From the NCBI GenBank assembly GCA_937864365.1, contig CALMJT010000216.1, positions 1 to 64,000 of the forward strand: a stretch of 64,000 nucleotides of DNA. Direction: 5' to 3'. The notes under the pieces are model-generated. The model saw only the letters and a list, made by a program, of their open reading frames with translations, searched no databases and was not told where the DNA came from. Below, one piece after another: positions 19,635 through 61,550 of this stretch (positions within the stretch are counted from its first letter, which is position 1; every line of letters begins with the position of its first letter). The position numbers and the translations under genes are program-made. Source of the stretch: an uncultured Alteromonadales bacterium (GTDB taxonomy: Bacteria; Pseudomonadota; Gammaproteobacteria; Pseudomonadales; Cellvibrionaceae).

Positions 19635-22600
19635 ATGACTTTACGCAAATTTCCACTTACCGAAAATCAAATGTCTTTGTGGCTTGCACAATTGTCAGAC
19701 CCTAACAGTGTTGCATACAATATGGTGCACTCTCTGGAATTGGATATTTCTTCGTACAAAGAAACGTTACAGAACAATCATGAGTCATTAATAACATGCT
19801 TTAACACGGCCTTTTTAGCAGTATTGTTAGAAAATCCGGCGTTGCGCTGTATTTATAGGCAAAACAGCAACACTGTAGAGCAAGTGGTTCAAAACCCCGA
19901 TAATTTTGAAACTCCTTTTTATTCGATGGAGCTTGTATCGCTCGAAACGGAATGTGTTTGGCCACATTTACAACAACAAGCAGATCACATTTTTAATTTA
20001 GAAGAAGAATTACCTTGTAAAGGAATCCTATACCACAGTAAAAACGATAACGACAGGGTGGCATTACAAATTATTCTCCACCATATTGCCGGTGACTTTT
20101 TCTCCTGCGAATTGGTTTTTAATCAATTATTAATGCATTTAGACAAGCTATGTTCGATATTTAATGACTCTACGGCCTATCATAATTATTTGGAAGAACT
20201 TTTAAATCACTCCGATGATGCTTTCAAAAAATCTTTTTTTCATTATCAAAATGACGAATCCAATTACCGTTCTAGCGAAAGCAGTAAAATCGACCGCGGT
20301 TTCTGGCACGACTACTTAAATAATAGCGTGCCTTTAGAGCTACCACTCAATTTTATTCGCCCAAGTGTTCAAACATTTTTAGGCGATGAAATACAGACTC
20401 AATTTACAAAAGAAGAAATTATCGGAATCAAGCATGTAGCTAAAGCATTACACACAACACCCTACATTTTTTTATTCGGTCTATTTCAATGGTTGCTCAA
20501 CCAATATAGCTGTCAACAGAACTTTCGTATTGCAACACCTGTTACCGCTAGAACTCAAAAAAATTATCGAAAATCCATTGGTTATTTTGTTAGTCCAATT
20601 GTCTTAAATTGCCATGTCGATAAATCGGCTTTGCTGATCGATTTTGTGGCCGATGTCCAGAACAATCTTAGCAAAACGTTAGAGCATCAACGTTATCCTT
20701 TACGACGAATCATTAAAGACTGTATTGAAACCGGTGTAGTAGAGCAAACTTCAGATCGAACACCATTGTTCCAACACATGTTTACCTATTCAAGAATTCA
20801 ACGTCACTCCCACAGAAATAAGGTTAAAAAACACCTTCTTTCACAACAGCGGGGTAGCGCCCATGAATTAAACCTTATGGTGGTAGAAGATCGATACGGA
20901 ATCGAGCCACTATTGGAAATGCGCTGGCGTTTTAACGAAGCGCTCTATCACAGTAAATTCGTAAAAGAACTTTCAGATCAATATCGTTGTTTTATTAACA
21001 CACTTATTGCGTTACCAGAGCAATCACTGTTACGTACTCGGCTTGCAGATATTACGGTTCCGGAAAAATTTTTATCGATTATTAAAGCGTCTGAAATTTC
21101 GTTCAAAGGTGCACATGCGTTAAACGATTGGTTAACGATATGCTTAAACAGTCGTAACAACCTTGCAATTAAGACCGCTAACCAAGTATTTTCATACCAA
21201 GAGTTATTTTTTAATGCGCACGCCTATGCGCAAAAAATCAGCAAATTCGCTAACAAACCAACCATTGTTGGTATTTGTTTAGAACGCTCACCTGAAGCAA
21301 TTTTCGCTATGCTCGGCGCATGGCTACAGGGTGTACCATACCTATGTTTTGATCGGTCACTACCCAAACAACGCCTTGAATTACTGATAAACCAAGTTAA
21401 ACCCGATGTTTTATGGCTTGATCAAGCTGTATCAGAACTACCAAAAATTCAGGGCGTTGACATAATTCATGTTAACGAGCTTGAAGACATATCAAATCCA
21501 GACATTAGCTTTGAACAACTGGTTACTAGTGCACAGGCTCAAGACGATTTCGTTGCCTATAAGATATTTACTTCGGGCACAACTGGCCTACCAAAGCTTA
21601 TTTCCGTGTTACAGAGCAACCTATCGAATTACGTAAACAGTATCGCTCACGCCAATTTATTACCCGAAGGTAACAACAGCACACTATTATCACTAACCTC
21701 ATTTGCCACCGATCTTGGTCACACGGCTTTATTCGGCGCTTTATTAACCGGTAGAACCTATGTATTGCTTAATGACGAACAATGCAAAGATCCTAATTTT
21801 CTACAGGATTATCTGTCAATAAATCCGGTTGATGCCCTAAAAATTACACCGTCGTTTTTTTCCGCGTTGAGTGACGGCGTGCCCAACATTACACCCAAAC
21901 AACGCTTAATTTTTGGTGGTGAAAAGCTCACAGCTAATATCGTAAATACAGTTCTCGCAAACGAAAGCGATTCAAGCCCGCATGTGTTTAACCATTACGG
22001 TCCCAGCGAAAGCACCGTAGGTATTGTATGTGGCGAAATAACAAAAAATACTCGCTTAGATGAAATTCCTTTGGGTAGGGCGCTCAAAACCAGTAGTCTT
22101 GCCGTCGTTGATGCTGAGTTAAATGCGGTACCCAAAGGCGTAGTAGGTGAGCTTTTAATTGCAGGTGCTACGCTGAGTTTAGGTTACGACGATAAAACAC
22201 TCAATAAAGGCAGATTTATTGAGCACCCCTTAATCGGTCGTTGTTATCGCAGCGGCGATGTGGTCAAAATTGATCACAACGACAATTTAATATTTATAGG
22301 ACGAATTGATCGCCAAATAAAAATTCGTGGTCACAGAATTGAGCTCGACGAAATTGACGCAGTCCTATTGAAATGGGATGAGATTAAGCACGTTACTTCA
22401 GCGCCCAGAGAAGGCATAAATACGACCATTGATACGTATATCAGTTTTAAAAATGCTGTCTCTTTAACCCAATTAAAAGATAAATTGCAGCGTATTGAGC
22501 GTTTCGTATCAAACGCTCTGCCCGAATACATGCTTCCCGGTTATTGGCGAATTGTCAGTGAGATTCCTCGTACTGCCAGTGGTAAATTGGATATTAACGC

Positions 22601-24497
22601 GGTTAAAACATTGTCATTTGTGGAAATTCCCTTTGGTCAGTGTTCTGATGATCCCAATAGCACCATAAAGTCAGATCTACACTCAGATGTTATCCCATCT
22701 AACGACCTAGTAGTAAAACACGCTGCAACAAAAAAAGAAGACACTGGTAAAAATGTATATACTCCCGATAAAAAAATTCATGAAAAAGCCGTACGCAACG
22801 TTGCCGATAAACTTCACGATATTTGGTGTGAAGTGTTACAAAAAGAATCTATAAAACATAACCAAGACTTTTTCTCGCTTGGTGGTGACTCTATTTTAAG
22901 CTTGCAGATTATTGCTAAAGCCCGTAAACAACACCTTAAAATAACACCTAAACAATTTTTCACCGGAAAATCCATTTCAGGCATTGCAGAATTAATTACC
23001 CCTAAAACCGATATTGAAGAAGTGTATGCCACTAAAGCTACTGAGTTAAATAACGCAAAAGAACCGAAAGTCAATCAAAAACAATATCCTTTAACGGCAA
23101 TCCAGTCGTGGTTTTTTAATCAATTTCCAACGGGGGAAAACTTCTGGAATCAAAGTATTTTGATCTGTGATTTACCCGTAATTAGCTATGATCGTTTACG
23201 AGAATTTGTACGGCTCACACTAATAAAACATCCTCAACTTAGAGCGCGATTTGCCTGCGAAAACAACCGTTGGATTCAATTTTATGCCCCCGTTGAAGAC
23301 TCACTTATTACTGCATCGGTACAAACATTATCAACAGAATATTGGCAAGACTCTTCTAATCAGCAATATCAAGGTTTTTTGACGGGATTTCAGGCCACAA
23401 TGGATATTACCTACGGCCCGTTGTTTAAACTGCTGCAAGTAACAGACGGCAATGAGCAATCTAAAATTCTGTTCACTGCGCATCACCTTGTTATTGATGG
23501 CGTTTCTTGGCGAATTCTCTTAGAAGAATTTGACGAATTTTTCTTTACGGATAAATCTACATCACACATAAACAACGTGGTGGATAATACATTTAATGAT
23601 TGGCTAACCGAAGTTCAAACACGATCTACCATGCTGCAAAAACTTCCAAATCACTGGAACCCGGTTTTACACACGCTAACCAATACACAAACGGTAACTA
23701 GATCGTTAGTTGCCGATGCTCGGGATTATCAGCAAGTATTTAGTGAAGATTTTCTACTTTCTACAAAACTTCCTGAGCGGTTAACAGTAAAACATTATTT
23801 GTTAGCCAGTCTCAGTAAAGCTTTAACGCTCTGGTTTGATGACAACCCAGAATTAAAAAAATCATTCACATTCAATAATTACACCGTTATTGAATGTGAA
23901 AATCATGGACGAGAATCAACACACAACGATATAGATTTAAGTTCTACCGTTGGTTGGTTTACCTGCCGATATCCAGTGCTGGTACCGGTTAACACAACCG
24001 ATTCTAATCCGCTTATCGAGCAAACGAAATTAAACTTACCTTCAAATAACGATGCTATTGATTATGGAATTTGGCGCTATTTGCATGCTAATAGTACACA
24101 CTGGAATCACACACCGTTAAATCATCAAGAACCTTTTATGGTAGTTAACTACCTGGGCAAATTTATATCGCAGCCGGCTGGCCGAAATTACCAAATTATA
24201 GATCCGCTCAGTAACACATTAGAAGGTGCCGCGCTACACAACAGTCGCGCTAACACTTCGTTACGCGCACAACAACTGGATCTTAATTTGGTCTCGCGAG
24301 AAGACGGTTTACAGGTTCATTGGAGCTACAATCCGGCAATTTTTAGCGAAGTACAAATTATTGCGTTATCTCAATTATTTAAAGGTTCGTTAAATGAATT
24401 CAAACAGTTTATTGAAAACAACCTAGACGACCAACCTCAAGCGGCTGATTTTCATCTAACCGACGACGAGTTTTCTAGTTTACTAGAAGACCTTTAA
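19635..24497 (+). CDS. NRPS 1: C(starter?)-A(Asp)-T-E
   Basis: LHHIAGDFFS (C); FTSGTTGLPK (A3); A-domain code read as DLTKIGHVG(K); FFSLGGDSILSLQ (T); AHHLVIDGVSWRILLEEF and GWFTCRYPVLVP (E). Confidence 0.93.
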   Translation: MTLRKFPLTENQMSLWLAQLSDPNSVAYNMVHSLELDISSYKETLQNNHESLITCFNTAFLAVLLENPALRCIYRQNSNTVEQVVQNPDNFETPFYSMELVSLETECVWPHLQQQADHIFNLEEELPCKGILYHSKNDNDRVALQIILHHIAGDFFSCELVFNQLLMHLDKLCSIFNDSTAYHNYLEELLNHSDDAFKKSFFHYQNDESNYRSSESSKIDRGFWHDYLNNSVPLELPLNFIRPSVQTFLGDEIQTQFTKEEIIGIKHVAKALHTTPYIFLFGLFQWLLNQYSCQQNFRIATPVTARTQKNYRKSIGYFVSPIVLNCHVDKSALLIDFVADVQNNLSKTLEHQRYPLRRIIKDCIETGVVEQTSDRTPLFQHMFTYSRIQRHSHRNKVKKHLLSQQRGSAHELNLMVVEDRYGIEPLLEMRWRFNEALYHSKFVKELSDQYRCFINTLIALPEQSLLRTRLADITVPEKFLSIIKASEISFKGAHALNDWLTICLNSRNNLAIKTANQVFSYQELFFNAHAYAQKISKFANKPTIVGICLERSPEAIFAMLGAWLQGVPYLCFDRSLPKQRLELLINQVKPDVLWLDQAVSELPKIQGVDIIHVNELEDISNPDISFEQLVTSAQAQDDFVAYKIFTSGTTGLPKLISVLQSNLSNYVNSIAHANLLPEGNNSTLLSLTSFATDLGHTALFGALLTGRTYVLLNDEQCKDPNFLQDYLSINPVDALKITPSFFSALSDGVPNITPKQRLIFGGEKLTANIVNTVLANESDSSPHVFNHYGPSESTVGIVCGEITKNTRLDEIPLGRALKTSSLAVVDAELNAVPKGVVGELLIAGATLSLGYDDKTLNKGRFIEHPLIGRCYRSGDVVKIDHNDNLIFIGRIDRQIKIRGHRIELDEIDAVLLKWDEIKHVTSAPREGINTTIDTYISFKNAVSLTQLKDKLQRIERFVSNALPEYMLPGYWRIVSEIPRTASGKLDINAVKTLSFVEIPFGQCSDDPNSTIKSDLHSDVIPSNDLVVKHAATKKEDTGKNVYTPDKKIHEKAVRNVADKLHDIWCEVLQKESIKHNQDFFSLGGDSILSLQIIAKARKQHLKITPKQFFTGKSISGIAELITPKTDIEEVYATKATELNNAKEPKVNQKQYPLTAIQSWFFNQFPTGENFWNQSILICDLPVISYDRLREFVRLTLIKHPQLRARFACENNRWIQFYAPVEDSLITASVQTLSTEYWQDSSNQQYQGFLTGFQATMDITYGPLFKLLQVTDGNEQSKILFTAHHLVIDGVSWRILLEEFDEFFFTDKSTSHINNVVDNTFNDWLTEVQTRSTMLQKLPNHWNPVLHTLTNTQTVTRSLVADARDYQQVFSEDFLLSTKLPERLTVKHYLLASLSKALTLWFDDNPELKKSFTFNNYTVIECENHGRESTHNDIDLSSTVGWFTCRYPVLVPVNTTDSNPLIEQTKLNLPSNNDAIDYGIWRYLHANSTHWNHTPLNHQEPFMVVNYLGKFISQPAGRNYQIIDPLSNTLEGAALHNSRANTSLRAQQLDLNLVSREDGLQVHWSYNPAIFSEVQIIALSQLFKGSLNEFKQFIENNLDDQPQAADFHLTDDEFSSLLEDL

Positions 24498-24521
24498 AAA
24501 TTATCTAACTTAATTAATCTC

Positions 24522-27500
24522 ATGACAGAATCTAAAGACTCAAATAGCAAAGCTAAAAATATAGAATCAATATATCCCTTGTCGCCAATGCAAGAAGGGT
24601 TGCTGTTTCATAGCTTAATGAACCCAGGTACAGGTATCTATTTGCTACAGTACCGTCATGTGATGGAGATAGATAATCTTAATATTGAGGCTTTTATTCA
24701 AGCATGGGATTTCGTGTTCCAAAAACATGAACTGCTGCGCACGTCGTTTGTTTGGAAAAATCAAAAACAACCGCTACAAGTTGTTCATAAGACTATTAAT
24801 TCTCCCGTTGAAATTTTAGACTGGCAACATCTTAATGAAACCAACCAGCGTGAAGCTCTGGATGAACTCTTAAAATCTGAACGTGAGACGGGCTTTGAAT
24901 TTACAAAAGCCCCGTTGATGCGCGTAAAGCTGATTAAACTAAGCAGTAATAAATATCAATTTTTACGCAGTTATCATCATATTTTAATGGATGCTTGGTG
25001 CTTTTCATTAATTATGATGGATTTTTTATCGGCTTATCGAGACATTATTTCTGGCCGGGTTAATACACCAACTATTCATAAACCCGTACCTTACTCAAAA
25101 TTTATTCAATGGTTGCAACGACAAGATAAGGACAAAGGCCTAACTTTTTGGCGCGATTGCCTTGCAGGTTTTGATCAGCCAACGTTTGTGCCCTTATTAA
25201 CTTCTAACGCAAACGATAAAAGCAATGCAGTAGAAGATTTGGTGACGATCTTAGATGAACACACCACCGATACTCTTAATCGAGCAGCTTCTAGCGCGCA
25301 GGTTACGCTCAATACATTAATTCAAGGGGCTTGGTCGTTATTATTGAGTCGCTATTCACAAACCTCCGATATAGTGTTTGGAGTAACAGTAGCAGGGCGC
25401 CCGGCAAGTCTTCCAGACATGTCGGATGTCGTTGGCCTATTTATCAATACTATTCCACTAAGAGTGAATGTAAACTCAAATAGCGAATTAACATCATGGT
25501 TAAAAAATCTATTCGAGGATAATTTATTAATTCGTGAATACGAACAGATTCCCCTAGCAGACATTCAAAAAATCAGTGAAATTGACTCCGCAAGAGGTCT
25601 GTTTGATACCTTATTTGTTTTTGAAAACGCGCCTTTTGATGCCGGTTTAAAACAGGAGAATCTCGAATTTTTGGTTAGCGAGGCAACCAATCGCACCCAC
25701 ACAAATTATCCTTATACCGTTGTCGTTATTCCCGGTAAAACCGTACATTTACAACTGAGCATTCACAGTGAACGCGTCGATAAAGACATTGCTCAACGAA
25801 TGCTTCAGCAATTTTCTCGTCTTGTGTGTTCTATTGCGCAACACATTTGCAGCGAAGATATAATTACTCTGGGCGAAATTCCGTTGTTAAATGCGCAAGA
25901 AATTTATGCATTAACACAAGGGTTAAACGCACATTCTGCCGATTTAATCGACAAAAAGTCTTTAGAATACGGTTATTTACAACGCGTCCAAGAACAGGTT
26001 TTAAGCAAGAGCAAAGAAACACTGCTGATTCACAACGGCAATTCGTACAGCTACGAGTATATCGACAAGCAATCCAGTAAAATCGCACACTCCATTTTCG
26101 CGGCGAACTTACCGCCGGAAAGTGTTATTGCGGTATTGGGCAAGCGCAGCGCAGACTATTTAAGCACAATATTAGGAATACTAAAGGCAGGCTGTGCTTT
26201 TTTACCGCTCGATCCCGCGCATCCTAAACAGCGTCATTGCGATATATTAACCGAGGCGCAACCTGCTGCATTAATTTTGTTGGATGAGAACCGGTCATTT
26301 ACAACAGCCGATTTTTCGTCATCGACTGTTACATTTAGCCAATGGCACTTCTCACATTTGCAGCAACGTAATCTGAACTCTTCGGAGCCTTTAATACTGC
26401 CGAGCCTAAAAGGCAATAATTTAGCCTATGTTATTTACACCTCGGGATCTACCGGTAAACCCAAAGGCGTTTTAATTGAGCATAAAGGTATGCTTAATAA
26501 TATGCTGGGGAAATTGCCCGAATTACAACTAGATTCATCAGACGTTATCGCCCAAACAGCGTCCCAAGCCTTTGATATTTCGGTGTGGCAATTACTCACG
26601 GCACCCATTCTCGGTGCTAAGATTTGTATTGTTGATGACGAAGATGTACGCAATCCATCGGCGTTAACCGCAATTGTTGAAAAGCAAAAAATAACCATTT
26701 TAGAAATTGTACCGGCGTTAATCCAATCGTTACTCGATCAACCGAGTAACGCGTTACAATCCTTGTGCTGGGTAATGTCAACCGGCGAAGCGCTATCGCC
26801 GGAACTTGCAAAAAAATGGCTGCGTAAATACCCACAAATTCCTCTCATGAATGCTTATGGGCCTGCGGAATGCTCTGACGACGTTGCGTTTTATCCCCTT
26901 AAAACCATTAGTGATGCAGAATTTAATCCGTTACCCATCGGTCGGGCTACCGCAAATTTAGAGCTTTATGTTTTAGACAGTCATTTACAACCGGTACCGG
27001 TCGGTGCGGTGGGAGAAATTTATGTGGCCGGTATTGGTGTTGGCCGAGGTTATCACCGTCGCGCCGATTTGACCGAACAAAGTTTTTTGTTAAATCCCTT
27101 TAAAAATTCCAGCACTTATATTTATCGCACGGGTGATTTAGGTTCGTATAACTGTCAAGGAGTAATCAGTTATCACGGTCGTATCGATGGGCAGGTAAAA
27201 ATTCGTGGATTTCGAATTGAAGTTGGTGAAATAGAAAACTGTATTGAGGCGCTACCAGACTGTGAGCGCGCGTTGGTTATTGTTGAAGGTTGTAACGATA
27301 CCAAACGCTTGGTTGCCTATGTACAACATAAAAGCGCCAATGCCTCAAATCTTAAACAGTGGACAAGCGAAAAACTACCCAGCTATATGGTGCCGAGCAC
27401 GTTTATTGTTCTCGATAAAATGCCATTGAACGCCAATGGTAAAATTGATAAAAAAGCTCTGCCAAAGCCCGATAATATAACGCATGAAATTATCGCTCCT

Positions 27501-36050: not shown

Positions 36051-36053
36051 ATC

Positions 36054-45000: not shown

Positions 45001-45506
45001 CCGGCGTAGACGTAAGCTGGCAGGACTTCTTTAAAACCGATTCAAAACAACAGGTAGAAACCATTTGTGAGACATCAAAAATTCAGTGGCAATGGTTGCA
45101 GAACAATAAAGGCTTACAAATAAGTCAACGTTCCCCCGGAATTATTAAACATCCAATAACTCAAGAATTTAGTTTTTTCAATCAAGTTCAATTACACCAT
45201 CCCGCGTGTTTAGAGCCTGAGGTACGACAAGATCTTGTGGCTTTAGTCGACCAAGACCAACTACCGAGAAATGTCTATTACGGTGATGGTTCGGTTATTT
45301 CTGACGAAGAAATGGCGGTAATTGGCGAATTATACGAAGTCAACGCAATTCGACCGTCGTGGCAGGCTGGAGACGTTCTAATGGTTGACAATATGCTAAT
45401 TGCCCATGCCAGAGACCCTTTTAAAGGACCTCGCAAAATCGCGGTAGCTATGGCCGATATGTATGAACAATCCGACGTTTGGTCACCGCCGACAGTTGGT
45501 CTTTAA
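36054..45506 (+). CDS. NRPS 3: C-A(Asp)-T-C-A(Gly)-T-C-TauD (Asp beta-hydroxylase)
   Basis: C motifs HHIAFDAWS, HHIITDGWS, HHIITDEWS; codes DLTKVGHVG(K), DILQIGVIW(K); C-terminal TauD domain with FHNESSHMSRWPRKQWFFSE and distal AHARDPFKGPRKIAVAM. Confidence 0.93.
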   Translation: MTQKSSLQANVSNNFSIQNTTDWQKKCLLAQRLQSLPNEKQQVFRAKLAEQGINSWQLPIVGNSANTQLNIPLSAAQSSLWFIQTLADEDGSQFLRTSYNLNSNLLIKGDLNLEIFKRALELFFIENEIFYTIYLRDTETGKPIQTLLPNPESVFNEVWHFQRIDYAYEENQQRVNDIINKQKLIPFELSSKAPIAFFLNQFNCSTWMFSITVHHIAFDAWSEGIMIGRLCEIYDQLLQNTANTPEQNTQVLAKNIPENTNTELPTYKDYAIWQEQWLAGSDAQLQLDYWQKHLQNCQLSLPLPRDFAPSNNLSDSDIFEVDVTLSKQFFEKLTHITQQHNATPYHWLLTAFKWLLCKYTNSYDINVGTSVALRDRPELQNLVGMFVNTLVLRDQFTHDSPFLTSLNSVKNTVKNAYDYKEYPFYRLLDALNIDRASTYHSLFQVLFVYVDLPSSELPSIHGASLTPILSKTQEARFELTLRVEELINGDVKLRLEFDPKLYRESTVTQMLVDYEALLLQLNNDIDLNLQNWLPPSVINQYKSSNTRFNNVKAISNNSEIANNGISSAFNAYHHWVHQTPSAPALIWQDEAEQTIFTYAEFDQQANLLAGVLQQQGINQNDCIAFVSDRAYWQIIAVIAAWKLGASYVALDAQWPNRRINELLAIIKPKCVLHNCNTDCHYFNDDNTGYVADISIALENDILAIEKLSKQFNSNASANILTFPPNLSVAYYIFTSGSTGKPKAVAISHRALSTYTSAINNALNLPNSSQLTSVSSLATDLGHTAVFGALLNGHCLRWFATDLINDPMLLAKKLQQNPVDVIKLTPSHVKAFTPVLELMSPSYYWVCGGESLSADTAETLLKINPQCQLINHYGPTETTVGALINFVTLNDIARYRSQGCIDIGKPLKGYRALILNEYNQLTVPGCIGELAIAGDALADGYHDDPTATDHSFIEVDILGEHLRVYKTSDQVRINKLGNIEYIGRNDNQVKIRGNRVELNEIEQKLEAFEGISNAVALFIGNVDDQPVNRLVAFITGEISQKQNTEKYIEQITQSLEQQLPNYAVPETLRILEQFPLLASGKIDRKKLINDYLESSQKLNNVQQNILDNNGKQNAIVTAVVVTEDQQQLLSIWRKVLQRDDLTIHDDFFRVGGDSILSLQVIALARKSGIKLTPKEFFKKKSISKLLPNNPSDDVNSKDLTVSEGVVKKNGFEKIDSEKTATDISIVEKDLNSFPLSLSQERIAWLEDFNGGDNSYHLNVALCFAQKINQQAIERTLKHLIFEHESFRMGFKQSAGQYRAFVIDGFTAVNHFSIEILPSIDTAKIWTEHGFCLDQPPLLRAAIIEQQDESILLLKLHHIITDGWSMRLFTEQAIAHYTHYCEDKNTQNNEWISELPADNVKAARVQYSDYAIWQRQQSFSDDIHFWQSFLATTPSYLNLPNDTSVTGTPNLSDARHHSGLFTAQLSNDLCRQLDEYLLTQTQGLTASNLLLSSFALALYRVCQQSQFRIGLPVSGRVHPDLNDIIGLFINTLVIPFDLKPEQSASEFITTSQENVQAALNHQNVPFECLVKELEQHRDTTKTPLFNVLFNFQHSNFNKTESIDNESVTIDRNHFGQSIAKFELTLDVTETRAPQQRTYQLEWEYKAECFSKATIKNLQDYFSLSLQWLLNESKESLHATAKKLAEFDDITENNQQLLNVTNTTQGEVSINAVRDIITQGIKQKHKTAIIDQFGSLSYQNLLLGAWSLSAEINSRLEQSDIQPENNAVIICLERDRSLPISLLACWLAGKAYVPIDPNHPKDRNQLIIESCRASVCIVSNTTNIDGFSGITVNVDKVLKNTVTTPEELDYLTQQALPGQNPLAYSLYTSGSTGKPKGVLIEFDPLNNFLQAMQNIFQLNDTDVCLASTTITFDIAGLELWLPLVHGATVVLASEAQRVSELSDLIAKYGVNLVQATPSGWKLLLEQVTAAKTPTLLSQVTAICGGEALSESLARRIQNHTKTVFNVYGPTETTIWSTCYQVSNHFSHYSGNVAIGKPILNTQCLVLDSNHNQVPVGAVGELFIGGHGLAKGYAGQEQLTREKFVHLEKYKHLATRFYQTGDRVRYNNNGDLQFVSRTDSQIKLRGYRIELGEIENALESISGIQQAAVILKDTDEHAYLAAFIQLVEDTQRTDFAKKDLIVAQLKALIPTYMVPQCFTVLENLPLNTNGKIDRLALAGIDINDTTKETQQNINADCSQTQGIVLNTWQELLFPNYTDVELRNTDNFFELGGHSLLASQALARINTHFNFENPINLRQFFDNATIGQLSNLCDAKLTTAESTHTSISGLVKIEASFAKRAPVSTQQYRLWLAEQFTPAAYNMSLAVKLKGAVNLEAVNLAIKSIFDRHESLRTRFELIGEHLEQVIDDTTALPFTTQKITGCTDTDVENLRNELLKQRFDLQTQLPFNVYLIESSPSQYYLIFIIHHIITDEWSMNNLVAEFTKIYSSYTKDSNQEQFVLPNLTIQYKDYSIWQHKQFTKSYGEQLDEFWQQQLKNYKNFQWPQNSSGQVRKNGLAKRLNVLLSQEQTAVIKSFARAQNTSEFIVLSAIFRVWLARLVSANDVVIGTDFANRPSPDLEPLVGFFINLLPLRLSVDEHSTFAEIVSHEKEHFLEVNEFQQQPYEKVIEHYRANNSSDRSALIKFLLVMQNTPAADIHLPDLSVSVLPNSNQTARFDLSVFINLDKQCELQWVYDCSIFDDITINHYATQLSEILNTLTHNPNQKIASLSDLKPTKIERVDSKKNKLSKLKYLKSKKDNSALDNNLIIEQCDTHEKSLVDDKNRVTFGRWVRSSSGSDALPYVFLCNNSDINSTVWVKEYIDTIHEKLLSHGAVLFRNFGLQTPVDFEQFVESMHPQLFGKYGDLPKKEGGKNIYRSTPYPDDRMILFHNESSHMSRWPRKQWFFSEIVATEGGATPIVDCRLVYQQLPENIKYKLLNNGLLYARTFLPGVDVSWQDFFKTDSKQQVETICETSKIQWQWLQNNKGLQISQRSPGIIKHPITQEFSFFNQVQLHHPACLEPEVRQDLVALVDQDQLPRNVYYGDGSVISDEEMAVIGELYEVNAIRPSWQAGDVLMVDNMLIAHARDPFKGPRKIAVAMADMYEQSDVWSPPTVGL

Positions 45507-45521
45507 CTAGGAATTTTTGCT

Positions 45522-48500
45522 ATGATTTTTTCTTTGAATACCATTCAAAAGCAACTGACTTTGAGCAGTGACAGCCGAATTGTTACTGTTGTAATTAATG
45601 GCCTTGCAGACGTTGATCTTTTAAAACAAGCACTCGAAAAGATCATTAAATTTAATGACATTCTGCGAGCACAGTTAGTTGACGATGTTGATTTAACAAT
45701 ACCGGTGGTTGAATACTTAGCAGAATCCAACGTAGTGCTCAAAGATTATTGTGAAGGCGATGAGTTATTGCCTAAACATTGGTATCTGCAAAAGCGCTCT
45801 GAAGACCAACATTCTTTAATGTTTAAAGTGTTAAATGTTTTATTCGACGAAACCAGTGAATCTCTTTTTTGCCATCAATTACAGGTAATTTACAACAGCT
45901 TAGTTAGTGACGATTTAAGCAAAAATCATGATGAAAACAATTTTTTTGAAGATTTATTGGGTGAATCTACCATTCAGTATTCGGAGTTCACACAGTGGCT
46001 TAATGATTTAGAAAACGATGAAGATAATTTTGAAGCGAAACAATATTGGGCAAAATATGCAGACGCTGCGCCGATAAGTTTATCTCATCTCGAAACATTT
46101 GATGAAACGTTAAACAGTATAAAAACTTATCACCAACACTCTACAACAGTGGCACTGCCCGATGGAATAAATCTTACCAATGATGAACTCGCCGTTGTTT
46201 GTAAGCTTTTATGGTCAAAACTGCTTTGTGACCACAGCGGCAGCGATAGCATTACTATGGTTGAATATTACGATGCTCGCCATGAATATGACGAGATGTC
46301 TACTTCTATGGGTTGCTTTGCTAGATTAGCGCCTTTTCATTTTGTATTAACTGCCGAACAATCTTTTCAAGATTATATCGATAACGCATTGCACGAGTAT
46401 GAATTAAGTTCCGAATATATTGAAGCACTGCCAAACAGCTGCTTACAATTTGCCAATGTTGCCTACGAATTTAAAAATTCTTGTAATATTATTGCTGATA
46501 GTAATTCAAGTGAAAATGCTCAATCTAAAAAAAATACATCAAGAATTAGTTTTAAACCTACGCCGTCAACTTTGGAACCACCCGAGCAGATTGCGCTTAA
46601 ATTAACCGTGTCAGCGTCGGTTTCTGGCGAGTTGTCAATTACTGTTACCATCAATAACAGAATTAACGAATTAGCTGCGACGCTGTTGGCGGATCAATTT
46701 AAATCAATCTTGCAGCAATACTTATTTACCTCTAAAGATAAACAATTTAGCTTAAATAATGTCAATTACATGTCTGCTCTTGACCAGTCATTGAATGATA
46801 TTTGGATTAACCGACAAACTTCGTACAAAGGCGACGTTTTAGAGGCAATATTATCTGCGGCAATAAGTAACAGTAATCACATCGCTATTATCGAAGGTCA
46901 CAAGCAGTGGACTTACGGTGAGGTTGTTCATCAAGCACACACTCTTGCAAACCAGCTAAACAACACGACTTTAAATGCTAATTCGCAACAATCAGCACCG
47001 GTTGCCATTTTATTAGGCCAAAAAGCAGAAACCTTAATTTGCCAACTCGCCAGCTGGATGGCAAATCGCGCTTTTATTGTGGTAGATATCAAACAGCCAG
47101 AAAGTAATATTTTATCTATTTTACAAGAAACGAACGCGAGCATTATTGCTAATTCTTTTGCGGATATAGAATATTTACGATTAAAAGCGCAGGAGCAGGG
47201 CATCGGTGATTTTAATCATCAGATGATCAGCTATGAAAATCTGAATTTTGCGAGTGATTCCAGTTCTGTACGAGATGACTACGATTTTCATCGACCTACA
47301 AACAATATTCCCGCTTATATTTTGTATACATCAGGAACCACGGGTAAACCCAAAGGCGTTATCATCGGTCGTCAGCAGATTTCTAATTACGCCTTCGCCA
47401 TTGCTGAGCAGTTAGGTTTTAAACGAGGTGTTCATTGTGCGGTAGCCTCATCGTTGAGTACCGATCTCGCGTATACCTGTATTTTTTCGGCGTGGTTACA
47501 GGCCGGTTGCGTAAATTTAATACCCGATCAAACACGCACCAATGCAATTGCTTTCTCGAATTATATTGAATCATTTAAGCATCAGGGTAATGCAATAGAA
47601 TTTCTCAAAATCGTACCGGGGCATTTTCAGGCGTTAATAGGCGATACCAACACAATACCTAAATACCTACCCAGCAGCGGTTTAATCTTTGGTGGCGAAA
47701 AAGCTAGTGCGACGCTAATTGATGCTATTCACCAGTGTGATGCTGCGATTTCTATTTACAACCATTATGGCCCAACAGAAACCACTGTTGGCGTAGCCAT
47801 TGGCCGTTACAACAAAGATAACCCGCAATTTTTATTGCAGCGGCCGTTATCGGGCAACACACTTGTACTCGTAAACAACAACCTAGAACCCGTTTCAACG
47901 GGCTCAATCGGTGAGTTGGCTATTTCTGGTCAACAAGTAGCCATGGGTTATTGGAATTTGCCGTCTGAAACTGCTCGACGCTTTAAATCGTTAATGATTA
48001 ATGGCAAAGACGACTTAGTTTATCTAACGGGCGATATTGCGCGCTTTACAATTAACGGTCAGTTAGAAATTCTAGCTCGTAAAGATCAACAGGTGAAGGT
48101 ACGAGGTTTTCGCGTTGAATTGGATGCGATCTGTTCCGTCATTGAAGCACAACAACACGTAAAAAAAGCGTTGGTTAAAGTTGATGACCAATCGAGCCAA
48201 GTTTTAATTGCCTACATACAAACAACTTCGAGCACGGTTGATCTTCTACTGCTTGAACAAAGTCTAAAACAGTCACTGGCATCGGCATTACCGGATTATA
48301 TGTGTCCTAGTCAGTATCGTTTTATTACCGGTATTCCATTATTGGCGTCGGGAAAGATAGATTTAGCCAAGATTGATACCTGTGTCATTCAGACTAATAA
48401 CACGGAATTTGTAGCACCTCAAAGCGCGCTAGAAACACTCGTCTGTGAAATTTGGCAAGACAAATTAACCCGTAAACCAATTGGCATTAATGATGATTTT

Positions 48501-48764
48501 TTTGCTTTAGGTGGCCATTCGTTAATTGCGATTAAAATCGCAGCGGCTTTAAGCCAACAAGTCAACATTGTATTACCGCCAGGCATTGTGTTTGAAAATC
48601 CAACGCCTTCTGATTTATCGCAATTTTTACTGGCTAATAGTGACAACAAAGCCAAACTAGAAGCAATTGCTAAGGCGCGTTTGAAGCTACGAAATATGTC
48701 TGACGAAGAAAAAGCTGTATTACTTGCACAACGTCACTCACAGGAGCCCGCCGGTGCAGTTTGA
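45522..48764 (+). CDS. NRPS 4: degenerate C-like (interface?) - A(Asp) - T
   Basis: About 420-aa C-like N-terminus without HHxxxDG (VLNVLFDETSESLFCHQL at that position); code DLTKIGHVG(K); FFALGGHSLIAIK (T). Confidence 0.9.
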   Translation: MIFSLNTIQKQLTLSSDSRIVTVVINGLADVDLLKQALEKIIKFNDILRAQLVDDVDLTIPVVEYLAESNVVLKDYCEGDELLPKHWYLQKRSEDQHSLMFKVLNVLFDETSESLFCHQLQVIYNSLVSDDLSKNHDENNFFEDLLGESTIQYSEFTQWLNDLENDEDNFEAKQYWAKYADAAPISLSHLETFDETLNSIKTYHQHSTTVALPDGINLTNDELAVVCKLLWSKLLCDHSGSDSITMVEYYDARHEYDEMSTSMGCFARLAPFHFVLTAEQSFQDYIDNALHEYELSSEYIEALPNSCLQFANVAYEFKNSCNIIADSNSSENAQSKKNTSRISFKPTPSTLEPPEQIALKLTVSASVSGELSITVTINNRINELAATLLADQFKSILQQYLFTSKDKQFSLNNVNYMSALDQSLNDIWINRQTSYKGDVLEAILSAAISNSNHIAIIEGHKQWTYGEVVHQAHTLANQLNNTTLNANSQQSAPVAILLGQKAETLICQLASWMANRAFIVVDIKQPESNILSILQETNASIIANSFADIEYLRLKAQEQGIGDFNHQMISYENLNFASDSSSVRDDYDFHRPTNNIPAYILYTSGTTGKPKGVIIGRQQISNYAFAIAEQLGFKRGVHCAVASSLSTDLAYTCIFSAWLQAGCVNLIPDQTRTNAIAFSNYIESFKHQGNAIEFLKIVPGHFQALIGDTNTIPKYLPSSGLIFGGEKASATLIDAIHQCDAAISIYNHYGPTETTVGVAIGRYNKDNPQFLLQRPLSGNTLVLVNNNLEPVSTGSIGELAISGQQVAMGYWNLPSETARRFKSLMINGKDDLVYLTGDIARFTINGQLEILARKDQQVKVRGFRVELDAICSVIEAQQHVKKALVKVDDQSSQVLIAYIQTTSSTVDLLLLEQSLKQSLASALPDYMCPSQYRFITGIPLLASGKIDLAKIDTCVIQTNNTEFVAPQSALETLVCEIWQDKLTRKPIGINDDFFALGGHSLIAIKIAAALSQQVNIVLPPGIVFENPTPSDLSQFLLANSDNKAKLEAIAKARLKLRNMSDEEKAVLLAQRHSQEPAGAV

Positions 48765-51700
48765 TGATGAATTACTACTTTCATTGCTGCTAGACGATAA
48801 GCTGCTAGACGATAATAGCAATGAAGTAATCGACGCTTGCGAGCGGACAAAAGCTCATGGGGCGACACCTGCCGTTGGTACGCAGATTAAAAAGCACGCA
48901 ACAACCGGCGTGTTTCCGTTGTCTTCCAGTCAGCAGCGTATTTGGTTGACGCAAACCATCGAAAATGATGCCAGTTACCATATCCCTAGGCATTTTATCT
49001 TGGATAAAAGCGTTGACCTGCGAGCCATAGAACCAGCACTTCAATGTTTAATTGGTCATCATCCGTCGTTACGTACGCGTTTTTATTTAAATGAAAATAC
49101 CGCGAATCCCGAACAGGAAGTTCTGGCATTTGACCAAATCAGTTTTAAATTAGAAACTGATCACACTAACGCTGAAGCGCTAACCGATTTTTGCTCACAG
49201 TGGTTTAACACGCTGTTTACGCTGAATAAACCGCCGTTGATACGCGCTTGTTTGCTCAAAGTTACCTCACAAGATAATAATCTTAGCGATTGTCATAAAG
49301 TACAACCACAAACTCAGCAGCATTTATTAATTTGTATTCATCATATAGTTTCTGATGCACGTTCTAGCGAAATACTCAGCGATGAATTTTTGCATAATTA
49401 TTGGCATTTTGCCGCGCAACTAAAAAATGGCGTTACGGTTGACGATTTAACCGCGCCCAAACAACCCCCTATCGATTTGCAATACAGCGATTATGCTTTG
49501 TGGCAAAATGACTGGTTTAACTCTGAACAATATCAGAACCAAAAAGATTATTGGCAAAGTAAATTTAAAGGTTTGATCGAGTCAGGTCATGATTTATCGA
49601 ATATTGATTCGCCAGTATTGATTAAAGATCGCTCGTCTACACTAATTCAAAAAAGTGATGCCATTAAACGTGAATTTTTTCTGGAATCTTCACTGAAAAA
49701 TGCCGTCGAGCAAAAAGCTAAGCGATTGAAGATTTCGGAAAATTCGTTGCTGCTTGCAGCTTATCATCGATTATTATTTCGCGTCAGTGGTAATCGTCTA
49801 ACCAGTGTAGGATACGCTCTAACCAATCGTGAATCCGATCAACTCAACGACATAGTAGGTTGTTTTATCAACACGCAGGTATCTTTTGCTGAATTTACAG
49901 ATTCTCACGAAAATCTGGATCTGTTCATTGGCGATATACATCAGCAACAAATAGGGGCGTTAAACAACGCCAGTTTTCCCTACGAGCACTTACTTGCCTT
50001 GTTTAATAATGTTACCGCTCAACAGGTTGGATCGCTATTTAATGCTTTTTTCAATTTTAAACAGGTCGATAAAAATACCAAAGGTGTTGGCAATTTGGGT
50101 TTTAACGATCAAATAATAGCGGGTTTATCTGCTAAATTTGATGTAAGCCTTGAGATTACTCGTAATCAAGAGACATTTTATGGTGTTTTTGAATGTGCCG
50201 CTAAACATTGTAAACCAGAGACCGTCGAGTATTTAACAGCCCTGTACCAAGAATGTGTAATGGAGCTTTGTGATGTTAATCATGCTTCTAGCTCAAGTTA
50301 CGCTACAAAAAATAAAGCACTCTTGTCATCTAATCAGCATTGCTTTTTTGAAGAATATTTAAATAACGGCTTATCTAAATCAAAAAACAATAAACAATCG
50401 CTCTTTACTTATTACAACGATAACAACGAGCGTGAAGTTTATTTTGATCAATTATTTTTATGCGCACACAAACTTGCGGAAAAACTTAATGAGCTTATCG
50501 ACGTTGACTCTAGATTACAAAAACAACCATTAATAGCAATCAGTTTACCGCGCTCAATAAGTTTGCTGGTTTCATACCTTGCAGTTCGTTTTATTGGTGC
50601 GGGTTATGTTGCTATTGATCCAGATTTACCCGATGAAAGAATTACATACATATTGAATCAATCAAAACCCATCGTATTTCTAACCGATGTTCACACCAAT
50701 CTATCCGACAAGGTATTTTCACCAGAAGATTTTGCAACTATAAGCGACGACGATACCGCGAACACGTCTGCTTTTAAGCAGTTAATTTGTTACAACCCAA
50801 CGGTTTATATTGAAAATTTATTAACCCATAAACTGCCAGTAAACGATGCGCCATTACAGCCCTCACTTGTTCGCAAGATTAGTTTTTCTACGCTTAGCAA
50901 TAACATCGCGTACATTCTTTTTACGTCGGGCTCTACGGGAAAACCCAAGGGCGTTCAAATTGGTAATCGTGCATTAGATAATTTTTTAGCCGCTTTTCAA
51001 GATATTCTTAAACTCAATAAAACTCATAGCTTCCTTGCTTTAACCACCATCTCTTTTGATATTTCAGGTCTAGAAATATGGTTGCCGCTGTGTACTGGCG
51101 CAAATTTGGTGTTGGGTAAAAAAGAGCATCAGCGCGATCCAGAAGCGCTTTTTGAGCTGATTTTGCAAAAGAATATTACTCATTTACAGGCAACGCCTAC
51201 AACCTGGGCAATGTTAATGGCGCTTGAGGTTGAATTTCCACCCGGTTTTGTAGGTATCTGTGGAGGCGAAGCGTTATCGGACAGTCTAGCGGCCAAAATT
51301 TGCGCTCGCGGCATACAATTACTGCACGTGTATGGGCCGACCGAAACAACCATATGGTCCACCGCCAAGTGGATTAATCGCGCTGATAAAACCGACCTCG
51401 GTGAATACAGTTTCGGAGCAAACAATATCAATAATTATCGCGATAACCGCTGCGACGGTAATAGCACCGGAAATATTACCTTAGGTAGACCCATTGCCAA
51501 TACCGACATTTATATTTTGGATGAACACAACCGATTACTTGATAAAACCCGAGTAGGGGAGTTGTGTATCGGCGGAGCTGGATTAGCCGAAGGTTATTAC
51601 AACCGCGACGATCTTACCCAAGCAAGTTTTATACATTGGAAAGATGTAAATGGTTATAGTCGTCGAATTTATAAAACCGGCGATCTAGCCAGACTTAATG

Positions 51701-53304
51701 CCCGCGATGAATTGGAGTTTTTTGGACGTAAAGATAACCAAGTTAAAATTCGCGGTCATAGAATTGAGCTTGGCGAAATTGAAAGCGAAATGTCATCGTA
51801 TGAATATATTAAGCATTCGTGCGCTTTGGTAATTGATGAGCAGATCATAGTTTGTGCGGTATTAAATAACGGTGAATCAAAAGTATCGTCACCAGATTCG
51901 GTAGTCGACCAAGACTCAATTAAAGCAGTATTGGCTCAACATCTACCGTATTACATGGTGCCCAATCAGATTGTGTTCTATAACGAATTTCCGCTTAATT
52001 CGAGCGGTAAAACCGATAGAAATGCCTTAACGCTGATGGTTAAACAATCCTTACAAGAGAATCGATTTAACAGAAACAGCCACTCTAAAGCCAATGACCA
52101 GAGCCTTAACCAAACCCAACAATGGGTAATAGAGACGCTGTCTCAGGTGTTGAACAAAACACTCACTTTACAGGACGATTTTTTTGCCAACGGTGGTAAT
52201 TCGTTATTAGCGGTACAGTCAACAATTGCATTAAATAAACGCCTAAATCAAAACCAACAAACAGAATTATGCTTGCCTATGACGGCGTTATTTGAATATC
52301 CCACGGCCAAAGAACTCGCAGACTTTATCGATCACAAAAGTGACCAACAATTAAGACATGTTATCCAACGACGCTTATTAAACGTTGTAGACAAGCCAGT
52401 GACTAAGTTGGTGTGCTTTCATCCAGCCGGAGGCGGGGTAGAGGCTTATGCAAATCTGGCGTCTTTTTTGAGCAATGCATCAATTCAAGTTTATGGAATT
52501 GAAAGTAGACAAAAAATTGCTTTAAACAGTCACACAAAAAATCAAATCTCAACAGACACATTATTAGATCAGTACTGTGAGCAGGTTTTAGCCTCGGTTA
52601 ACGATAATGACCCAATAAACCTACTTGGTTGGTGCTTAGGTGGTCATTTAGCCTTAGCCGTAGCCAATCGCTTAGTTGCGCACCACCAGCGCGTGGTCGC
52701 TTGGGTTGGCGTTATTGATTACGACGCGGCCAATCTCATCAATTTAGAAGGTGCAGAAGATAATCATCAACATAACACCGATTATTTACAATCAAGCACA
52801 GAGCTTTGGAAGGACTTTTTAGATTTTAAGAATTTTTACAGCTTCGCCATCCCTGAAACCGATATAAGAAGAATAAAAGACGAATACGAAGAGTATCTCA
52901 AGACTGAACGCATCGATAATAAAACATCACTCTACCAACAAGGTTTAGGGTTTTTACTTAAAAAATCCAAACAATTAGGTGTGTTAGATAAGATTGTCGC
53001 GTTGGTATTAGACGATAATCAATCTCTACCCAATGAAGAATTATTAGAGTTGCTAGAATTAAGATTTATGACCGAAAAAAGCATAAATATGACCGCCAAG
53101 CGGCTTATTGTTAAGCCTAAAAATCATTGTGTTGATGTATGGCTTTGTGAGAATCGCGTTCGTAACAATGAACAAATTATTTCAGACTGGCAGAATTTCA
53201 GTAATAAAGTGGATTTGAACGTAAAACGTATCGAAGATGATCACTTTGGCATTGTTAGCAATGATAAGTTTAAACAGCAATTATTAAATTCGTTGGGTTT
53301 TTAA
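48754..53304 (+). CDS. NRPS 5: C-A(Gly)-T-TE
   Basis: HHIVSDARS (C); code DILQIGVIW(K); FFANGGNSLLAVQ (T); CFHPAGGGVEAY and LLGWCLGGHLAL (TE with Cys). GTG start at 48754, after caggagcc, overlaps the NRPS 4 stop. Confidence 0.92.
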   Translation: MQFDDELLLSLLLDDKLLDDNSNEVIDACERTKAHGATPAVGTQIKKHATTGVFPLSSSQQRIWLTQTIENDASYHIPRHFILDKSVDLRAIEPALQCLIGHHPSLRTRFYLNENTANPEQEVLAFDQISFKLETDHTNAEALTDFCSQWFNTLFTLNKPPLIRACLLKVTSQDNNLSDCHKVQPQTQQHLLICIHHIVSDARSSEILSDEFLHNYWHFAAQLKNGVTVDDLTAPKQPPIDLQYSDYALWQNDWFNSEQYQNQKDYWQSKFKGLIESGHDLSNIDSPVLIKDRSSTLIQKSDAIKREFFLESSLKNAVEQKAKRLKISENSLLLAAYHRLLFRVSGNRLTSVGYALTNRESDQLNDIVGCFINTQVSFAEFTDSHENLDLFIGDIHQQQIGALNNASFPYEHLLALFNNVTAQQVGSLFNAFFNFKQVDKNTKGVGNLGFNDQIIAGLSAKFDVSLEITRNQETFYGVFECAAKHCKPETVEYLTALYQECVMELCDVNHASSSSYATKNKALLSSNQHCFFEEYLNNGLSKSKNNKQSLFTYYNDNNEREVYFDQLFLCAHKLAEKLNELIDVDSRLQKQPLIAISLPRSISLLVSYLAVRFIGAGYVAIDPDLPDERITYILNQSKPIVFLTDVHTNLSDKVFSPEDFATISDDDTANTSAFKQLICYNPTVYIENLLTHKLPVNDAPLQPSLVRKISFSTLSNNIAYILFTSGSTGKPKGVQIGNRALDNFLAAFQDILKLNKTHSFLALTTISFDISGLEIWLPLCTGANLVLGKKEHQRDPEALFELILQKNITHLQATPTTWAMLMALEVEFPPGFVGICGGEALSDSLAAKICARGIQLLHVYGPTETTIWSTAKWINRADKTDLGEYSFGANNINNYRDNRCDGNSTGNITLGRPIANTDIYILDEHNRLLDKTRVGELCIGGAGLAEGYYNRDDLTQASFIHWKDVNGYSRRIYKTGDLARLNARDELEFFGRKDNQVKIRGHRIELGEIESEMSSYEYIKHSCALVIDEQIIVCAVLNNGESKVSSPDSVVDQDSIKAVLAQHLPYYMVPNQIVFYNEFPLNSSGKTDRNALTLMVKQSLQENRFNRNSHSKANDQSLNQTQQWVIETLSQVLNKTLTLQDDFFANGGNSLLAVQSTIALNKRLNQNQQTELCLPMTALFEYPTAKELADFIDHKSDQQLRHVIQRRLLNVVDKPVTKLVCFHPAGGGVEAYANLASFLSNASIQVYGIESRQKIALNSHTKNQISTDTLLDQYCEQVLASVNDNDPINLLGWCLGGHLALAVANRLVAHHQRVVAWVGVIDYDAANLINLEGAEDNHQHNTDYLQSSTELWKDFLDFKNFYSFAIPETDIRRIKDEYEEYLKTERIDNKTSLYQQGLGFLLKKSKQLGVLDKIVALVLDDNQSLPNEELLELLELRFMTEKSINMTAKRLIVKPKNHCVDVWLCENRVRNNEQIISDWQNFSNKVDLNVKRIEDDHFGIVSNDKFKQQLLNSLGF

Positions 53305-53306: not shown

Positions 53307-55076
53307 GTGCAGTTACTAAAAAATTTAATGTATGAATCAAAACGCGAGCTAATATTTGCCTTGATTATGAGTGCAATTAGCGCGGCCATAGGTATTTTAC
53401 TCATTAATTATCTAAACCAACAAATTGAAGGGCAGAACCTAGTCAGCGGTAATCTTAAGCTTAATATCGTATTGTATTTTCTGTGTTTATGGTTGTTGTT
53501 AATTATAAGCGGGGCAGTGGCGCAAGTTAAGCTCATGCGATTTGGTCAAGATATTGTCTATAAATTGCGCGTTAATGTGTTTAGTCGAATGCTCAACACC
53601 GAATTTATTGTTAAAGAAAAGGCGGGGGCACACCGCTTGCACGCCGTTCTTGCTAAAGATATTCAAACTATCGCGCAGGCATTTAATCGCGCACCCATGG
53701 CTTTTTATAACGCTTTTTTAATAACTGCATCTATTGCGTATCTGGGTTATTTGTCTTTGATTTTTTTGGCATTAACGCTGGTTGTAGTAGCGCTCGGATT
53801 AGTCGTTGACCGTTTTATTACTAAAAAAATGATGAAATATTTAAAACTAGTTCGAGATTATGAAGATGATTTGTTTGCTTGTTATAACGAAGTTATTTAT
53901 GGCGCAAAAGAGCTTGAGCTAGATGCCCATAGAAAACAGTCTTTATTGGATGTTGATTTAAAATCTGCTGCGAACAATTGCAAAAGTGCGCAAAAAAATT
54001 CAGATCTATTTTGGTCGTTAAATCTAAATTGGACGGTTGCGTTGGTTTTTTTACTGTTGGGTGCCGTGGTGTTATTCGGTGGTATTGTCTATCAAACGCT
54101 TGGTTTAAACCTGAGTTTAGCTACGGTAAGCAGCTTTGTGGTAACCATACTCTTTATGCGTTCACCGTTAACAGGACTTGTTGAAATGATTCCGGCGATT
54201 ACCAATGGAGTTATTGCTGCGCGTAAAATCAATCAGCTTGAACTCGCACCAACATCGGTAGAAAACAAGGTCGTTAATGGTGTGAAATCATCTATTATTG
54301 ATCAATCTTATACCGTAAAACTGCCGTTTAAGAGTATTACCTTCAGTGAAATTACCTTCGATTATGGCGTATTCAACAATACAGTAAACAGTAACCATTT
54401 AAACGATCGCAATTTAAACCATCATCACACGAACAATCACCATTTAAACAATGACTATCAATTTCAGCTAGGGCCAATTGACTTATCTCTGCACCAGGGT
54501 GGCTGCTATTTTATTGTCGGCGGTAATGGCAGCGGTAAATCTACTTTCTCAAAAATCATCACCGGAATATATCCCACAAGCTCTGGTTCTGTCGCAATTG
54601 ACGGTAATTTTATTTCGGCAGAATTATTGAAAGAGATGTTTATCACCGTGTACGCAGATTTCTACTTGTTTAAAAAAATTAAAGATTACGAACGTAAAAA
54701 ACCCGCCATTGATTACTGGTTGCAAGAATTAAAGCTGGATCACAAGGTATCTGTTGTTGATGGACGCTTTAGCACGACTGACTTGTCTACCGGACAGAAA
54801 AAACGATTAGCGTTATTACACGTGTGCGTATCAGACCGACCATTAGTCTTGTTGGACGAATGGGCCGCCGACCAAGACCCAGAGTTTAAACACCATTTTT
54901 ACACAGAAGTTTTGCCTCAGTTACAAGCTCAAGGGAAAACCATCATCGCAATTACCCATGATGACCATTACTTTTATTGTGCCGACCAAGTAATTACATT
55001 ACATAACGGCATTATCGAAAGCGCCACAAGCAATGTTAAAAGGGCTTTGATAAATTCTGTGCAAACGGAAACCTGA
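53307..55076 (+). CDS. Cyclic-peptide/siderophore export ABC transporter (SyrD/PvdE-like, fused TMD-NBD)
   Basis: Six-TM N-terminus, Walker A GGNGSGKST, signature LSTGQKKRLALL, Walker B PLVLLDEWAADQDP; directly 3' of the NRPS genes. Confidence 0.92.
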   Translation: MQLLKNLMYESKRELIFALIMSAISAAIGILLINYLNQQIEGQNLVSGNLKLNIVLYFLCLWLLLIISGAVAQVKLMRFGQDIVYKLRVNVFSRMLNTEFIVKEKAGAHRLHAVLAKDIQTIAQAFNRAPMAFYNAFLITASIAYLGYLSLIFLALTLVVVALGLVVDRFITKKMMKYLKLVRDYEDDLFACYNEVIYGAKELELDAHRKQSLLDVDLKSAANNCKSAQKNSDLFWSLNLNWTVALVFLLLGAVVLFGGIVYQTLGLNLSLATVSSFVVTILFMRSPLTGLVEMIPAITNGVIAARKINQLELAPTSVENKVVNGVKSSIIDQSYTVKLPFKSITFSEITFDYGVFNNTVNSNHLNDRNLNHHHTNNHHLNNDYQFQLGPIDLSLHQGGCYFIVGGNGSGKSTFSKIITGIYPTSSGSVAIDGNFISAELLKEMFITVYADFYLFKKIKDYERKKPAIDYWLQELKLDHKVSVVDGRFSTTDLSTGQKKRLALLHVCVSDRPLVLLDEWAADQDPEFKHHFYTEVLPQLQAQGKTIIAITHDDHYFYCADQVITLHNGIIESATSNVKRALINSVQTET

Positions 55077-58811: not shown

Positions 58812-58820
58812 AGGCATTCA

Positions 58821-61548: not shown

Positions 61549-61550
61549 GT

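Follow-up and report, generated by a model that had tools for sequence, protein, structure and literature searches.

A gene cluster from an uncultured Alteromonadales bacterium predicted to encode an acylated octapeptide siderophore with three β-hydroxyaspartate ligands

Introduction

Marinobactin and formomarinobactin begin with fatty acyl-(OH)Asp-Dab, where OHAsp is β-hydroxyaspartate and Dab is 2,4-diaminobutyrate, and a Dab transaminase is encoded in their clusters; corrugatin, ornicorrugatin and histicorrugatin are acylated octapeptide siderophores of Pseudomonas (PMC13037486). Alterobactin and pseudoalterobactin are catechol siderophores that contain OHAsp, two in the case of pseudoalterobactin (PMC6836290). 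Here, we describe a nonribosomal peptide synthetase (NRPS) cluster in the first 64 000 nucleotides (the window) of contig CALMJT010000216.1 from an uncultured Alteromonadales bacterium (assembly GCA_937864365.1). With a probability of about 0.7, its predicted product is an acylated octapeptide siderophore, fatty acyl-D-threo-OHAsp-L-Dab-D-Dab-Gly-L-erythro-OHAsp-Gly-L-threo-OHAsp-Gly, in which iron would be held by the three OHAsp residues. Judged by its genes, the cluster is one of the OHAsp lipopeptide siderophore systems; the parts are familiar, and no siderophore described so far is known to combine them in this way.

The corrugatin family has eight modules and acylation in common with the window, where acylation is predicted. 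A corrugatin-like cluster in genome G656 also has a stand-alone and a fused Asp hydroxylase and an interface-A(Asp) arrangement (A, adenylation), as in the window, but predicts a β-OH-His module, two Asp, Ser and His, whereas the window predicts three Asp and three Gly; no corrugatin-type β-OH-His module with its own hydroxylase and no His code were found in the window. The marinobactin start and Dab transaminase resemble the window, but marinobactin has six residues and two N-OH-Orn hydroxamates, compared with eight modules and no hydroxamate gene here. The potashchelins and cupriachelin, like the window, pair a stand-alone with a fused hydroxylase, giving L-erythro- and L-threo-OHAsp (PMC7100376); they contain two OHAsp residues, to which the potashchelins add a cyclic N-OH-Orn hydroxamate and many Ser residues, whereas the window has three Asp modules. 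In alterobactin and pseudoalterobactin the third ligand is a catechol, and in the window it is predicted to be OHAsp. The order OHAsp-Gly-OHAsp of alterobactin would match residues 5–7 of the window.

The predicted traits that set the product apart are the presence of three stereochemically different OHAsp residues and of no other chelating group. A literature search that reached few subscription journals returned no paper on a siderophore with three OHAsp residues; because of this incomplete coverage, the novelty of the predicted structure is likely but not proven. Three further compounds were considered and rejected: mupirochelin is derived from salicylate and Cys, lactuchelin is a hydroxamate, and turnercyclamycin, with reported doubly charged ions at 787–800 (about 1.57 kDa), is larger than the predicted product.

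Results

Organization of the NRPS genes

Domains were called using Pfam together with custom domain models. Genes, domains, codes, hydroxylase classes and shared gene order were read from the sequence; substrates, stereochemistry, the third hydroxylation, the acyl group and iron binding are predictions built on them. Translation of the window bore out the five collinear NRPS frames with gaps of 60 nt or less listed in a first-pass annotation. They are tightly packed on the plus strand (19635–53304), and the spacing holds throughout if the TauD-type hydroxylase gene (18495–19574), which ends 60 nt upstream of NRPS1, is counted in. NRPS1 (19635–24497) is composed of a starter condensation (C) domain, A(Asp1), a carrier (T) domain and an epimerization (E) domain. 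NRPS2 (24522–36050) contains three modules, DCL-type C-A(Dab2)-T, C-A(Dab3)-T-E and DCL-type C-A(Gly4)-T, and NRPS3 (36054–45506) contains C-A(Asp5)-T with a GGDSI carrier motif, C-A(Gly6)-T and a C domain followed by a fused hydroxylase. NRPS4 (45522–48764) consists of an interface domain, A(Asp7) and T with a GGHSL motif, and NRPS5 (48724–53304) of C-A(Gly8)-T and a thioesterase (TE); for NRPS5 a GTG start at 48754, overlapping NRPS4, is more likely than that at 48724.

The tally is eight A domains, ten complete and one degenerate condensation-family domains, eight carriers, one fused TauD domain and one terminal TE. All frames are open, and the active-site motifs of the A, T, E, TE and hydroxylase domains are intact except for a Ser-to-Cys change in the TE. 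Eight complete and ordered modules are no chance event. Since all 11 condensation-family matches of the 4.72 Mb assembly fall inside the window, this is its sole NRPS locus. The genome encodes one phosphopantetheinyl transferase, and no member of the IucA/IucC family (NRPS-independent siderophore synthetases) was found in it.

Adenylation codes and predicted peptide

The nine pocket positions of each A domain were recomputed by alignment and were the same as those first derived by hand in all eight domains: DLTKIGHVG, DIWEMTADD, DIWELTADD and DILQLGVIW for modules 1–4 and DLTKVGHVG, DILQIGVIW, DLTKIGHVG and DILQIGVIW for modules 5–8. The codes and domain order support the composition proposed earlier, a siderophore NRPS with the predicted order Asp-Dab-Dab-Gly-Asp-Gly-Asp-Gly. 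We take the DIWELTADD-type code to specify Dab, an assignment that fits the adjoining transaminase and the relatives described below; the code string had no match in the literature search. The earlier statement that hydroxamate and catechol genes are lacking was upheld, with none in the window.

Epimerization and chain initiation

In a tree of 153 condensation-family domains, both E domains of the window lie inside the E clade (support 1.0), and C2 and C4, each directly behind an E domain, group with the DCL domains (support 1.0). The first-pass annotation had given residue 3 as D-Dab but had missed the E domain of module 1 (23040–24455, plus strand), which carries HHLVIDGVSWRI, ENHGRE and TVGWFT motifs. 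Because module 1 has an E domain and is followed by a DCL domain, residue 1 is now predicted to be D. C1 belongs to a clade whose seven members each stand first among the C domains of their protein (support 0.999); it matches best the C domains that initiate the chain in Nitrococcus and in genome G760. As C1 is of the starter type and groups with first C domains, one of them from the G760 cluster, in which a FAAL-like gene separates the hydroxylase gene from NRPS1, N-terminal acylation of the product is likely. The starter-type domain thus supports the putative acyl group of the (lipo)peptide suggested earlier.

Hydroxylases and the interface domain

Stand-alone (TBH_Asp) and fused (IBH_Asp) hydroxylases form separate classes (PMC12971057), and the configuration at the β carbon is S in products of fused enzymes and R in those of stand-alone ones (PMC12628792; PMC7100376). 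The window encodes one of each, both with the TauD fold family PF02668: a stand-alone Fe(II)/2-oxoglutarate Asp β-hydroxylase assigned to TBH_Asp (18495–19574, plus strand) and an IBH_Asp-class domain at the C-terminus of NRPS3 (about 44568–45485, plus strand). Two SyrP-like hydroxylases had been noted beside the genes; the number stands, but only the first is separate, and the two differ in class. In a tree of 113 hydroxylase domains, with clades labelled by gene context and without the Reitz 2019 reference enzymes, the clade that holds the fused domain of the window comprises 84 fused and six separate domains. The window's fused domain shares 49–58% identity with fused homologues, and the HNE...H...R residues are invariant. 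The stand-alone enzyme lies in an all-stand-alone clade, where it groups with those of G760, G637 and Nitrococcus mobilis (0.937), which together with that of a Pseudomonas metagenome-assembled genome are closest to it. The arrangement is that of OHAsp siderophore NRPSs: a stand-alone TBH_Asp-clade hydroxylase adjoins a C-A(Asp)-T module, and a fused C-terminal hydroxylase is followed by interface-A(Asp)-T. A genome search with the fused-hydroxylase query found no third hydroxylase. In three Pseudoalteromonas loci (L093, L109 and L112) the hydroxylase matched by this query is a separate 357-residue frame before X-A(Asp), so the class of a hydroxylase does not strictly predict whether its gene is fused.

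The interface domain at the start of NRPS4 (45525–46808, plus strand) has a condensation fold without HHxxxD and groups with His-less domains that precede Asp A domains (support 0.965). Both His residues of the motif are lost and Asp109 is kept in 21 of 21 aligned interface domains. An AlphaFold2 model (mean pLDDT 72, pTM 0.74) was compared with the PDB, where it matched NRPS C domains and the glycopeptide X-domain (E about 1e-14, TM about 0.6), the latter solved in complex with P450 oxygenases. This resemblance fits a role in which the interface domain would dock the hydroxylase.

Assignment of the hydroxylated residues

Searching 84 980 species genomes for matches to aligned fused hydroxylase domains yielded 80 named loci. 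In nearly every complete locus C-hydroxylase is followed in the next gene by X-A(Asp)-T, as in the window, and Asp7 can therefore be assigned with good confidence as the predicted substrate of the NRPS3-fused enzyme.

The carrier motifs bear on the other two Asp modules. GGDSI was found in none of 84 X-A(Asp) modules and in 22 of 24 C-A(Asp) modules, 15 of which have no recognized E domain after them; among non-Asp modules it was present in 40 of 40 with a following E domain. For modules without a following E domain, after redundancy had been removed, the motif occurred in nine of ten C-A(Asp) modules versus nine of 113 non-Asp modules before a C domain (Fisher P = 3e-8, only indicative given that the data set consists of related sequences and takes in the modules of the window itself). 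In the window, modules 1 and 5 carry GGDSI and module 7 carries GGHSL. The GGDSI carrier of C-A(Asp) modules would fit as a signature of the stand-alone hydroxylase. In potashchelin the stand-alone enzyme was assigned L-erythro-OHAsp in a C-A(Asp)-PCP (peptidyl carrier protein) module without an E domain, and the fused one L-threo-OHAsp (PMC7100376); two Halomonas loci with the potashchelin-type layout (L085 and L103) have GGDSI in the C-A(Asp) module. On the basis of the carrier motifs, locus layouts and potashchelin calibration, hydroxylation is predicted at residues 1, 5 and 7, giving D-threo-OHAsp1 (after epimerization), L-erythro-OHAsp5 and L-threo-OHAsp7. That of Asp5 is the least certain.

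Related clusters

Two genomes of the same order, G760 (G760:C1:3553976-3588540) and G637 (G637:C1:3618449-3651988), share a plan with Asp at modules 1, 5 and 7, Dab at 2 and Gly at 6. Their gene order is also that of the window, namely transaminase, stand-alone hydroxylase, C-A(Asp)-T-T and an E-like domain, and later C-hydroxylase, X-A(Asp)-T and exporter, with a PvdE-like exporter gene directly behind the last NRPS gene. The carriers of Asp modules 1 and 5 (in NRPS1 and NRPS3) are tandem in each of the two genomes, with GGDSI in both copies, and module 5 has no E domain. The best domain matches of the window often come from the same position in these clusters, such as C2 (54% and 52%) and the stand-alone hydroxylase (55%, G760); G760 also has the closest match to the first E domain, and G637 that to C5. 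The Dab transaminase gene occupies the corresponding position in G760; G637 and G829 have it close to the cluster, and identities are 51–57%. Both clusters differ from the window in having seven modules, with codes 3 and 4 unmatched to a substrate, and the NRPS proteins share 27–36% identity with those of the window over the best stretches.

Nitrococcus mobilis and the Pseudomonas metagenome-assembled genome have cousin clusters with two Asp modules and one His-type module; in the former (G827:C1:779788-789012) tandem GGDSI carriers are present in the Asp module that would be expected to meet the stand-alone hydroxylase. Pattern and tblastn searches based on NRPS4 found no direct relative among the 84 980 genomes, a plasmid search gave weak NRPS similarity only, and no relative was found among viral contigs.

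Thioesterase and release

The nucleophile elbow of the TE is GWCLGG (52627–52644, plus strand), with a Cys codon (TGC) at 52633 in place of Ser; the alignment shows the other two triad residues, Asp and His, to be conserved. Cys thioesterases are the less common kind. G637 also has Cys and G760 has Ser, and of the other TEs in the pool, about two dozen, nearly all show a clear motif with Ser. The Cys TE of ObiF (GXCXG) makes a β-lactone (PMC6668435) and that of SulM (Cys2818) makes a β-lactam (PMC11298585). These share the Cys nucleophile with the window TE, but their four-membered rings need a terminal β-OH amino acid or N-sulfonated diaminopropionate, whereas the window ends in Gly. Because the terminal code is Gly, an obafluorin-type β-lactone ending was rejected; the window TE may catalyse macrocyclization or hydrolysis. 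In G637 a Cys thioesterase (GWCLAS) directly follows an OHAsp-loading terminal module (G637:C1:3623795-3627598), and there an obafluorin-like β-lactone ending is conceivable.

Transport, supply and flanking regions

The genes for siderophore transport expected of an OHAsp siderophore system adjoin the NRPS genes. A TonB-dependent siderophore receptor (14067–16373, plus strand; TIGR01783, 282.5 bits, cutoff 223.5) has the enantio-pyochelin, FoxA and pseudopaline receptors as its nearest solved relatives, and a PvdE-like cyclic-peptide/siderophore ABC exporter (53307–55076, plus strand; TIGR01194, 338.7 bits, cutoff 286.2) follows NRPS5. The PepSY-TM membrane protein (11956–13755, plus strand; PF03929, 1.1e-53) is probably an inner-membrane ferric-siderophore reductase, from its position and family knowledge. 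The Dab aminotransferase reported beside the NRPS genes is real: the 2,4-diaminobutyrate–2-oxoglutarate transaminase gene (16734–18188, minus strand), which would supply Dab, scored 531 bits against TIGR00709 (cutoff 401.6).

Upstream of the iron-uptake genes, an aconitase gene and a class II fumarase/aspartase-like gene overlap (6911–11210). A Fur-box-like site near the aconitase start (6973; 14/19) is the only one to stand out (P = 0.005, one of several regions tested). FumC-type enzymes are iron-starvation genes. A 160 bp element at 6143–6302, with inverted ends of about 20 bp (TATAGGAAACTCTGATTAAC ... GTTAATCAGAGGTTCCTATA), has at least 40 copies dispersed across its own genome, and none was seen in the same-genus genome G001; it is a family like the miniature inverted-repeat transposable elements. 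A Tn3-family transposase gene (55809–58811) lies right after the exporter gene; past 60001, where SprT-like and helicase genes are found, the G+C fraction is 0.485, up from about 0.40. The region 55809–64000 is probably a mobile boundary adjoining the cluster.

Discussion

In the proposed pathway, the starter C domain would load a fatty acid onto Asp1, the stand-alone hydroxylase would oxidize carrier-bound Asp1 and Asp5, and the NRPS3-fused hydroxylase, docked via the His-less interface domain, would oxidize Asp7. The E domains would invert residues 1 and 3, and the Cys thioesterase would free the chain by attack of water or an internal nucleophile. The PvdE-like pump would export the product, Fe(III) would be held by three bidentate β-hydroxycarboxylates, and the iron would be brought back by the TonB receptor and PepSY protein encoded nearby. 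That three OHAsp residues could form a full Fe(III) donor set had been suggested at the outset; it is plausible and is now backed by comparison with the 80 loci and the relatives.

Several points weigh against this assignment. We saw no FAAL gene anywhere in the window, the cluster included, and no MbtH family member was found in the genome. The window has no more Fur boxes than shuffled sequence, and upstream of the transport and hydroxylase genes the Fur-box-like sites are weak at best. The carrier pool includes modules from the window itself and was assembled on the basis of the fused hydroxylase, the Asp5 module has no interface domain, GGDSI is present in the nine of 113 non-Asp modules before C domains given above, and at Asp5 the motif may be left over from an E domain since lost.

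In a rival reading the siderophore is the same but only Asp1 and Asp7 are hydroxylated, and the carboxylate of Asp5 (as plain Asp), an amine of Dab or water occupies the iron sites left over. There are two hydroxylases for three Asp modules, the interface domain occurs in module 7 only, and in most other clusters each hydroxylase can be paired with one Asp module. We nevertheless regard it as unlikely: module 5 bears the carrier motif typical of C-A(Asp) modules, G760 and G637 keep this motif, even doubled, in modules 1 and 5 with no E domain at 5, and potashchelin is hydroxylated in just such a module (PMC7100376).

Among the rivals that would change the function, the main one is a calcium-dependent lipopeptide antibiotic, in which Asp5-Gly-Asp7-Gly would be a DXDG motif. 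DXDG is the calcium motif of daptomycin-type peptides. Codes 5–8 do read Asp-Gly-Asp-Gly, an acylated peptide is predicted, the Cys thioesterase could cyclize it, and OHAsp also occurs in lipopeptides that are not siderophores, such as turnercyclamycin (PMC12971057). The adjoining siderophore-class TonB receptor, PepSY protein and PvdE-like exporter, and the placing of both hydroxylases in siderophore-type clades together with an interface domain, make this quite improbable. We give even less credence to a silent or defective cluster, acquired by transfer and yielding no product; the Tn3 transposase, the jump in G+C and the fact that most members of the family gave no match to the fused hydroxylase at E = 1e-50 would suit it, but the frames are open, and the active-site motifs are intact apart from the Ser-to-Cys change, which G637 shares.

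There is perhaps an even chance that the product is the first siderophore with a hexadentate set composed entirely of three stereoisomeric OHAsp residues, made by two hydroxylases, one of them serving two modules, with release by a Cys thioesterase, perhaps as a macrocycle, and that it represents a small class including the G760 and G637 products. OHAsp ligands make ferric siderophores light-sensitive: UV light cleaves them and the iron is reduced and becomes usable by other microbes (PMC12628792). A siderophore with OHAsp ligands only would, if the prediction is true, be an extreme case of and a clean model for that photochemistry. The comparisons also suggest a rule by which the stand-alone enzyme visits normal C modules with GGDSI carriers and the fused enzyme visits interface modules with GGHSL carriers; if true, this rule would improve structure prediction from genomes.

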